From contig NZ_REEZ01000003.1 in assembly GCF_003990445.1 (NCBI RefSeq), forward strand, positions 468,635 to 532,634: a DNA stretch of 64,000 bases, in the 5' to 3' direction. Positions 28,272 to 30,483 of this stretch are shown in pieces (position 1 is the first letter of the stretch; the number at the start of each line of letters is the position of its first letter). Below the pieces are notes generated by a model. It did not search any database. It was not told the origin of the DNA and saw only the letters and a program-made list of their open reading frames with translations. This DNA is from Pararhodobacter zhoushanensis (GTDB lineage: Bacteria; Pseudomonadota; Alphaproteobacteria; Rhodobacterales; Rhodobacteraceae). The position numbers and the translations under genes were made by a program.

Positions 28272-29270
28272 ATGAAGACGCGCAAACTGGGATCGTCGGG
28301 GATCGAGGTTTCGGCCATCGGCTATGGGGCAATGTCCTTTGCCGATTTCTACGGGCCGACCGATGAAGCGGCCTCGCATGCCATTCTGGACATGATGCGC
28401 GAGCGGGGGGTGACGCATTTCGACACCTCGAACGTCTATGGCATGGGCCGGTCCGAGCGCTGGATGGGCAGCTATCTGGCCAGGAACCCCGGCGCGCGCA
28501 GTGAGTTCGTCATCGCCACCAAGGCCGCGATCAGCCGCGATGCCGAGGGCAAGCGCTTGATCGACAACAGTGCCGCGCATCTGGAAGCCGAGCTGGACAA
28601 GAGCCTTGAGAAGCTGGGCGTGGACCATGTGGACCTGTTCTACGTCCACCGCCGCGAGGCGGATCGCCCGATTGAAGAGGTGGCTGAGACGCTGGCGAAG
28701 CTGCGCGCCTCGGGCAAGACGCGCGCTGTCGGGTTTTCCGAGATTGCGCCGGCCTCCCTGCGCCGGGCTGCGGCGGTGACGCCGATTGATGCGGTGCAGT
28801 CCGAGTACAGCCTGCAGACCCGCGCGCCCGAACTGGGGCTGGTGCAGACCTGCGCCGAGCTGGGCACGTCGCTGGTGGCCTTCTCGCCGGTGGGGCGGTC
28901 GATGCTGACGGATAACCCGGTGCGGCCGGACCGGATCGGCGACATTGCGTTCCTGCACAGCAATCCGCGCTTTGTGGGTGAGAATTTGGTGGCGAACCTG
29001 AAGATCACCGACGCCTTCCGCGCCTTGGCCGCCGAGATGGGCGAACCGGCGGCGGCGCTGGCGAACGCATGGCTGCTCACGCGGGGCGAGCATATCCTGC
29101 CGATCCCCGGCACCCGCTCGACCGCGCATTTTGCCGAATGCCTGCGCGGGGCCGAGATCATGCTGTCGGCCGAGGCGCTGGCGCGGATCGACGCGGTGCT
29201 GCCGGTAGGCTGGGCGCATGGTGACCGCTATGACGTCACGCAATGGATCGGGCCCGAGCGCTTCTGCTGA
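28272..29270 (+). CDS. Aldo/keto reductase
   Basis: A 332-residue NADPH-dependent oxidoreductase of the AKR superfamily (AKR12/13-like). The tetrad Asp, Tyr, Lys and His is visible in FDTSNVYGMGRSE, IATKAAI and LFYVHR. The C-terminal cofactor region has ILPIPGTRSTAHFAEC. The ATG at 28272 (MKTRKLGSSGIEVSAIGYG) is the family start. The trpS leader promoter begins within 10 bases of its stop. The natural substrate is not predictable. Confidence 0.92.
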   Translation: MKTRKLGSSGIEVSAIGYGAMSFADFYGPTDEAASHAILDMMRERGVTHFDTSNVYGMGRSERWMGSYLARNPGARSEFVIATKAAISRDAEGKRLIDNSAAHLEAELDKSLEKLGVDHVDLFYVHRREADRPIEEVAETLAKLRASGKTRAVGFSEIAPASLRRAAAVTPIDAVQSEYSLQTRAPELGLVQTCAELGTSLVAFSPVGRSMLTDNPVRPDRIGDIAFLHSNPRFVGENLVANLKITDAFRALAAEMGEPAAALANAWLLTRGEHILPIPGTRSTAHFAECLRGAEIMLSAEALARIDAVLPVGWAHGDRYDVTQWIGPERFC

Positions 29271-29276
29271 GCGCGC

Positions 29277-29305
29277 TTGCGCGGCGCGCGGCCCTGCGCT
29301 AGGGC
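29277..29305 (+). promoter_or_regulatory. Candidate promoter of the trpS leader
   Basis: TTGCGC (29277-29282), a 17-base spacer and TAGGGC (29300-29305). The -10 box ends only 7 bases before the leader ATG at 29313. Transcription would start at or next to that ATG, making the leader peptide mRNA leaderless. The boxes are imperfect, so this is a prediction. Confidence 0.45.
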
Positions 29306-29312
29306 TGCGCGC

Positions 29313-29360
29313 ATGACACGGGTAACGCGCATTTCCAACACTTGGTGGCTGGCCTCCTGA
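29313..29360 (+). CDS. Trp-rich leader peptide of trpS (TrpL-like)
   Basis: A 15-codon open frame, MTRVTRISNTWWLAS then TGA, with two adjacent Trp codons (TGG TGG at 29343-29348) near its end. AGGG at 29302-29304 lies 8 bases before the ATG, unless the transcript begins at the ATG itself. Tandem Trp codons in a short frame just before an antiterminator/terminator pair are the hallmark of ribosome-mediated attenuation. Ribosomes short of Trp-tRNA would stall at 29343-29348. The frame is too short for automatic gene finding and was found by reading the leader. Confidence 0.75.
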   Translation: MTRVTRISNTWWLAS

Positions 29361-29363
29361 CAA

Positions 29364-29431
29364 GGCGGCTTGCGACACAGGTTTTGAAACCTATCCTGTC
29401 ACGACAAGGCCGCCGCCATGGGCGGCCTTTT
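29364..29431 (+). promoter_or_regulatory. Transcription attenuator of trpS
   Basis: Region 2 is GGCGGCTTG (29364-29372). Region 3 is CAAGGCCGCC (29405-29414) and pairs with region 2 over 9 bp with one bulged G, forming an antiterminator. Region 3 can instead pair as AAGGCCGCC with GGCGGCCTT (29421-29429), a 9-bp terminator stem with a 6-base loop and a TTTT run at 29428-29431. A ribosome ending at the leader stop (29358-29360) would cover region 2 and allow termination; stalling at the Trp codons would free it. A smaller hairpin (AGGTTT/AAACCT, about 29378-29391) sits in the loop between regions 2 and 3. Confidence 0.75.
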
Positions 29432-29481
29432 GCATGAATGCTTCCCCTTCGGCGGCGGTCTCTTATCCCCAAGGAGAGACC

Positions 29482-30483
29482 ATGACCAAACCCGTTATCC
29501 TGACCGGCGACCGCACGACTGGCCCGTTGCACATTGGCCATTATGCCGGATCGCTGAAAAGCCGGCTTGAGATGCAAGACAGCCACGAGCAGTTCCTGTT
29601 GCTGGCCGACACGCAGGCGCTGACCGACAACGCCAATGACCCCGACAAGGTGCGCCGCAGCGTGCTGGAGGTGGCGCTCGATTATCTGGCGGTGGGGATT
29701 GATCCGGCGAAATCCACGATCTGCTTGCAATCGCACCTGCCCGCACTGGCCGAATTGTCGATGCTGTATCTGAACTTCGTCACCGTCGCCCGGCTGGAGC
29801 GCAATCCGACGATCAAGGACGAGATCCGCGCGCGGGGCTTTGGCCGCGATATTCCGGCGGGGTTCCTGTGTTACCCGGCGGCGCAGGCCGCTGACATCAC
29901 CGGCTTTCGCGCCACGGTGGTGCCGGTGGGTGAAGATCAGGCCCCGCTGATCGAGCAGACCAACGAGATCGTGCGCCGGGTGAATGCGGTGGCGGGCCAA
30001 TCGGTGCTGCCCGAGGCGCGGGCGGTGATCCCAAAGGCCGGGCGGTTGCCGGGGATAGACGGCAAGGCGAAGATGTCGAAGTCGGGCGGCAACGCGATTG
30101 CGCTGTCGGCCTCGCCAGACCAGATCGCGGCGGCGGTCAGGGCGATGTTCACCGATCCGGGGCATCTGAGGGTGAGCGATCCGGGTCGGGTGGAGGGGAA
30201 TGTGGTGTTCACCTATCTCGACGCGTTCGACGAGGACCACACTGAGGTCGCGGCGCTCAAAGAGCAGTATCAGCGCGGCGGTTTGGGCGATGGGGTGATA
30301 AAGCGGCGGCTGGACGGGGTCTTGCAGGCTCTGATCGGACCGATCCGTGACCGGCGGGCGGAGCTGGCGCGCGATCCGGGCTATGTGCTCGACGTGATCC
30401 GGCAGGGGACCGAAGTGGCGCGGGCGCGCACGCAGGACACGCACCGCGCGTTGGTTCAGGCGCTGGGGTTGTTCCGATTGTGA
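29482..30483 (+). CDS. trpS: Tryptophanyl-tRNA synthetase
   Basis: A 333-residue class Ic synthetase that charges tRNA(Trp). HIGH motif variant PLHIGHYAG at residues 15-23 and KMSKSGG near 197-203 are present. The ATG at 29482 follows a strong AAGGAGAGACC RBS. The gene sits behind the leader peptide and attenuator at 29313-29431, so its expression is expected to rise when charged tRNA(Trp) is low. Confidence 0.97.
   Translation: MTKPVILTGDRTTGPLHIGHYAGSLKSRLEMQDSHEQFLLLADTQALTDNANDPDKVRRSVLEVALDYLAVGIDPAKSTICLQSHLPALAELSMLYLNFVTVARLERNPTIKDEIRARGFGRDIPAGFLCYPAAQAADITGFRATVVPVGEDQAPLIEQTNEIVRRVNAVAGQSVLPEARAVIPKAGRLPGIDGKAKMSKSGGNAIALSASPDQIAAAVRAMFTDPGHLRVSDPGRVEGNVVFTYLDAFDEDHTEVAALKEQYQRGGLGDGVIKRRLDGVLQALIGPIRDRRAELARDPGYVLDVIRQGTEVARARTQDTHRALVQALGLFRL

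Follow-up and report, generated by a model that had tools for sequence, protein, structure and literature searches.

A tandem-Trp leader and probable transcription attenuator ahead of a second tryptophanyl-tRNA synthetase gene in Pararhodobacter zhoushanensis

The auxiliary antibiotic-resistant tryptophanyl-tRNA synthetase (TrpRS) gene of Streptomyces coelicolor is reportedly the subject of work by Kitabatake (2002) and by Vecchione and Sello (2010). The title of the latter, as it stands in a reference list (PMC4787780), attributes ribosome-mediated transcriptional attenuation to this auxiliary, antibiotic-resistant TrpRS. Elsewhere in the genus, the trpS leader of S. lividans, MMTRTCTQLWRAA, is described as having one Trp, as being leaderless and as lacking a U-run (PMC8079986), and an attenuator before trpS2 of S. 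avermitilis is given as a predicted candidate in a source that also presents the pheST attenuators of gamma-proteobacteria as leader-peptide control of a synthetase gene (PMC1262725). Among alphaproteobacteria, the trpL transcript of Sinorhizobium meliloti is reported to begin at the leader ATG and to contain tandem Trp codons (PMC7298713), and a ribosome-profiled small CDS is reported before trpS of Caulobacter crescentus (PMC4117421). In Deinococcus radiodurans, NO synthase is the reported partner of a TrpRS of the II type (PMC9437257).

Here, we describe a locus within a 64,000-nucleotide stretch of Pararhodobacter zhoushanensis DNA (hereafter the window), in which a short frame with tandem Trp codons precedes a TrpRS II gene. 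The locus resembles the auxiliary TrpRS of S. coelicolor in combining a second TrpRS with what is probably ribosome-mediated transcription attenuation, a likeness drawn from descriptions alone and with an organism of another phylum. In contrast to the S. lividans leader, described with one Trp and no U-run, tandem Trp codons and a U-run terminator are found here. Leader-peptide attenuation of a synthetase gene would be shared with S. avermitilis trpS2, which is predicted only, and with pheST, which concerns another amino acid. The likeness to S. meliloti trpL-trpE(G) lies in the alphaproteobacterial host, the tandem Trp codons and a start, here predicted, at the leader ATG; trpL controls biosynthesis, whereas here a synthetase gene follows, and the trans functions reported there for peptide and RNA have no known counterpart at this locus. 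With C. crescentus the likeness is a small CDS before an alphaproteobacterial trpS. A first, sequence-only reading of the locus had regarded a Trp leader before a synthetase gene as unusual; it is less so than claimed, since trpS attenuators have been published for Streptomyces (PMC1262725, PMC8079986). In the open-licence literature, no TrpRS II attenuation in Proteobacteria was found beyond the Caulobacter remark, subscription journals being outside the scope of this search. The element would add Proteobacteria to a control known from Streptomyces.

The leader ORF (MTRVTRISNTWWLAS, 29313..29360, forward strand) can be read directly as 15 codons, from the ATG at 29313 to the TGA at 29358-29360, and contains the tandem Trp codons TGGTGG (WW) at 29343..29348 on the same strand; it thus has the form of a trpL-type leader, being short and carrying adjacent codons for the amino acid that would be sensed. 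Upstream, a -35-like hexamer TTGCGC (29277..29282, forward strand), which is a weak match where relatives mostly have TTGAC, is followed after 17 nt by a -10-like hexamer TAGGGC (29300..29305, forward strand) that ends 7 nt before the leader ATG. In an ungapped logo of 21 sequences, TTGAC occupies positions -36 to -32 relative to the leader ATG and TA positions -13/-12, the TA position being conserved in 76% of them. Given this promoter spacing in relatives, transcription is predicted to begin with the leader ATG at 29313 or immediately next to it, and the transcript would therefore be leaderless. The weakness of the window's own -35 counts against the attenuator reading. A strong GC-rich inverted repeat (29284-29312) spans the -10 region and is not evident upstream in relatives.

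Downstream of the leader stop codon and on the same strand lie region 2 (GGCGGCTTG, 29364..29372), recognised from sequence and folding as the 5' arm of a candidate antiterminator, region 3 (CAAGGCCGCC, 29405..29414), which sequence, folding and stem covariation identify as a partner of region 2 or 4, and region 4 (GGCGGCCTT, 29421..29429), which together with the U-run TTTT (29428-29431) makes up the 3' half of an intrinsic terminator ahead of the gene. The 15-codon frame with its tandem TGG, the three regions and the TTTT had all been proposed by the sequence-only reading, and each lies exactly where it was placed. The further proposal that region 3 pairs with 2 or with 4, exclusively, was reproduced with trimmed RNAs. 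RNA 29359-29418, which includes region 2 and excludes region 4, adopts the 2:3 fold (-22.9 kcal/mol, z -3.21), and RNA 29373-29433, from which region 2 is excluded, adopts a 9-bp terminator (-26.1 kcal/mol, z -3.53). The exclusive folds thus appear when the RNA is trimmed to the parts that a stalled or a terminating ribosome would leave accessible. With both arms present (RNA 29359-29433), the terminator is preferred (-29.1 kcal/mol); since it is the more stable fold of the complete segment, antitermination would have to be kinetic, the antiterminator prevailing through its earlier formation, as in classical attenuation.

RNA 29277-29440 has a folding z of -4.41, with none of 200 shuffles equally stable, a value raised partly by the strong inverted repeat over the promoter. 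Both strands of the window were scanned for the composite, defined as a short frame with WW, a U-run hairpin and a second sequence able to compete for the 5' arm of that hairpin; this leader was the one place found, and 1 of 100 dinucleotide shuffles of the window contains any such composite. Between regions 2 and 3, sequence, alignment and folding place a small hairpin, GACA..AGGTTTTGAAACCT..TGTC (29374..29400, forward strand), which is extra to the window and partly to locus L032 and absent from most relatives. A search of this genome for further leader copies, in which 150 of 2974 first-look candidates were scored, gave a single full-length match (E 9.7e-20); the remaining 16 are weak (best 0.0078) and mostly cover the terminator part alone. 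Neither the window nor any of 18 relatives matched an Rfam family (release 15) at gathering score.

The leaders of relatives were drawn from 80 TrpRS II loci and further TrpRS II loci and aligned, with start codons chosen by rule or by eye. WW is invariant in all 24 aligned window-type leaders, which are 14-16 codons long and differ from one another in the remaining peptide residues. Over the same 24 leaders, 99.4% of the 168 cells of the terminator stem are paired, two-sided changes occur in 3 of 7 pairs, and none of 500 shuffles reaches as high a stem score, these controls leaving relatedness in. A 2:3 run of 6-8 bp starts 19-22 nt past the first TGG in 17 leaders; in the other 7 (L005, L044, L047, L051, L052, L055 and L065) no ungapped run was found at the expected place. 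The conservation that had been anticipated for such an alignment is thus borne out for the tandem Trp codons, for covariation of the 3:4 stem and for the recurring spacing, and in part for the 2:3 pairing.

We consider it probable that a classical ribosome-mediated transcription attenuator controls the auxiliary TrpRS, with induction under a shortage of Trp-tRNA. The transcript would begin at the leader ATG and would be translated immediately. When Trp-tRNA is ample, the ribosome would reach the stop codon and cover region 2, the 3:4 hairpin would form and RNA polymerase would stop near 29431. When Trp-tRNA is short, whether from lack of Trp or because the canonical TrpRS fails or is inhibited, uncharged tRNA(Trp) would act as the trigger: the ribosome would wait at TGGTGG, region 2 would pair with region 3 ahead of the synthesis of region 4, and readthrough would allow TrpRS II to be transcribed. 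A spare TrpRS that is switched on when Trp-tRNA is short is the likeliest function of TrpRS II.

The gene that follows (29482..30483, forward strand) encodes a trpS product of the TrpRS II type, 333 aa in length, which contains the HIGH and KMSKS motifs and matches TIGR00233 (trpS) as a member. Its nearest solved structure is D. radiodurans TrpRS II (E 1.8e-114). A canonical TrpRS, 34% identical to TrpRS II, is encoded on another contig of this genome, giving the organism two TrpRS, of which TrpRS II is the additional one. The sequence-only reading was therefore right in placing the leader ahead of a TrpRS gene, which is however not the organism's only trpS but a second and divergent one. Of 120 genomes sampled from the family, a TrpRS match of some kind was obtained in 118 and TrpRS II in 4, each of which also has the canonical enzyme; TrpRS II is thus accessory in this family. 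In Bradyrhizobium (L083, genome G157), two TrpRS II genes (73% and 74% identity) occur together with a canonical TrpRS. TrpRS II relatives are found on 154 plasmid records, some of them chromosome-sized, including records from Roseibium, Rhizobium, Methylocystis, Staphylococcus and Klebsiella; the locus from Roseibium (L170) carries a WW leader, and no plasmid record contains DNA resembling 29277-29481.

At the position of a canonical His, Gln is present in 104 of 104 TrpRS II rows, and at that of a canonical Gln, Arg is present in 103 rows (one gap); D. radiodurans TrpRS II has the same Arg and Gln at these two positions. Numbered by match offset rather than from a printed alignment, they correspond to His43 and Gln9 of the Bacillus stearothermophilus chain, the latter being a residue that we take to touch the ligand. 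Sensitivity to indolmycin has been linked to His43, and replacement of this residue by Asn is reported to give resistance (PMC4899734). Since Gln is found at the His43 place in sole-copy enzymes too, it is no marker of a spare, and both residues describe the TrpRS II type. As judged from the Gln at the His43 place, compounds that inhibit the main enzyme may be tolerated by TrpRS II. The Deinococcus system, in which NO synthase and TrpRS II serve nitration, was also considered for this organism and was rejected because NO synthase is absent: although D. radiodurans TrpRS II is the closest solved structure, its reported partner has no match in this genome, while 2 of 14 control genomes have one.

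Across the loci counted, the occurrence of the leader goes with TrpRS copy number. Where the genome holds another TrpRS, a WW leader is present at 57 of 61 TrpRS II loci; of the other four, L095 and L125 have leaders with a single Trp codon, and at L080 and L105, both from genomes with two TrpRS, a leader is absent. Where TrpRS II is alone in the genome, a WW leader is present at 1 of 42 loci (L143). The table behind these counts leaves out L042 (contig edge), L052 (WW leader present), L093 and L122 (the same as L047), counts both L039 and L040, which are identical in sequence, and includes upstream DNA of only 435 nt at L131 and 240 nt at L141. Fisher's test gives p 6e-23 for the link, a figure that overstates the evidence, the loci being phylogenetically clustered; the tree offers only 2-3 independent contrasts, for which a sign test gives p 0.5 at best, too few for significance, which would take at least six contrasts in agreement. 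The 42 sole copies fall into three clades, namely Acinetobacter/Moraxellaceae (16), Cupriavidus (7) and small-genome alphaproteobacteria (19). Cupriavidus provides the most telling contrast: it is nested among leader-bearing Paraburkholderia, and a leader is missing from all 7 of its sole-copy loci and present at L059, the two-copy locus of C. basilensis. L039, from a Nitrospira MAG, and L040, from a Parvibaculum MAG, belong to one isolate series and represent the same TrpRS II locus; one of the two bins is probably contaminated.

The same attenuator could instead serve ordinary Trp homeostasis, TrpRS II being a high-demand enzyme for low Trp rather than a spare for a failing canonical enzyme. 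Uncharged tRNA(Trp) cannot separate lack of Trp from synthetase failure, and the sole TrpRS at L143, in a 0.9 Mb genome, carries the WW leader MINISSYFSFLVWWRR, its sister L144 showing none. We nevertheless regard this reading as unlikely, given that the leader is absent from 41 of 42 sole-copy TrpRS II loci and from all 32 canonical trpS loci examined (one from this genome, 26 from the same family and 5 from the same class). The coupling of tRNA charging to synthetase level, which had been suggested from the sequence, is less likely as a routine function, as neither the canonical trpS here nor the 31 others have a WW leader. Since the gene is a second TrpRS and canonical trpS loci are without the leader, a conditional spare is the more likely role of the circuit.

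In a tree built by a quick method, in which 28 of 98 inner branches are starred, the window falls within a starred clade of 27 rows (SH-aLRT 98). A hairpin with U-run is present at 25 of 26 WW loci of this clade, L048 being the exception, and at 0 of 31 WW loci outside it. Leaders outside the clade end in a WWRS-like sequence, and there a 1:2 stem is formed by the codons past WW and the bases past the stop, with 95.6% pairing. This stem covaries, 3 of its 6 pairs having changed on both sides, as counted in 20 group B sequences (alignment A4) from which near-copies were dropped by eye; the group B alignment A2 is without L059, L072, L075 and L087. In the window, a stem of 8 bp, GGTCTCTT/GAGAGACC (29457..29481, forward strand), lies over the trpS ribosome-binding site, with the Shine-Dalgarno sequence (SD) AAGGAGA at 29471-29477, and has a candidate role in control.

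This stem, and not the terminator, might be the main switch, and such translational control may hold for the WWRS-type relatives, where the U-run is missing, the 1:2 stem covaries and default SD pairing in group B is supported by folding. A usable SD was available in 14 of 21 sequences of group A, the window's group, and in 23 of 26 of group B, the rest being dropped; its pairing exceeds that of shuffles in 19 of the 23 group B sequences and lies above the shuffle median in 10 of the 14 of group A. In the window itself, however, SD pairing is lower than in shuffles (0.63 vs 0.73), and folding states with a stalled ribosome gave no SD release for the window or for the majority of relatives, L076 and L099 showing a partial rise. 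A translational attenuator, in which the SD would be sequestered until a ribosome stalls, was rejected for the window on these grounds, and mainly translational control of its TrpRS II is very improbable. We propose that transcriptional attenuation fits the window's clade and that translational attenuation perhaps operates elsewhere. That the hairpin merely terminates the upstream aldo-keto reductase gene, which ends at 29270 on the same strand, with the WW frame arising by chance, is scarcely credible, because WW, terminator and spacing are retained in relatives with a different upstream gene, an aldo-keto reductase match standing beside TrpRS II in 3 of 104 loci (the window's own locus, L032 with 81% and L080 with 27% identity).

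Beyond the attenuator of the window's clade, a broader picture can be offered tentatively. TrpRS II may be a portable, self-regulated spare, in which a WW leader of one lineage has served across Proteobacteria to sense failure of the host TrpRS; the tandem Trp codons would have been kept, the output would be a terminator in one clade and sequestration of the ribosome site in the rest, and the leader would have been lost once TrpRS II became the sole TrpRS, as in Cupriavidus. Being found nearly always with TrpRS II as second enzyme and nearly never with it as the only one, the leader provides a natural experiment, and the related leaders with and without terminator are useful for understanding how attenuators shift between transcriptional and translational output. 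If the attenuator works as proposed, switching a spare TrpRS on by need, as is known from Streptomyces, would be widespread in Proteobacteria.
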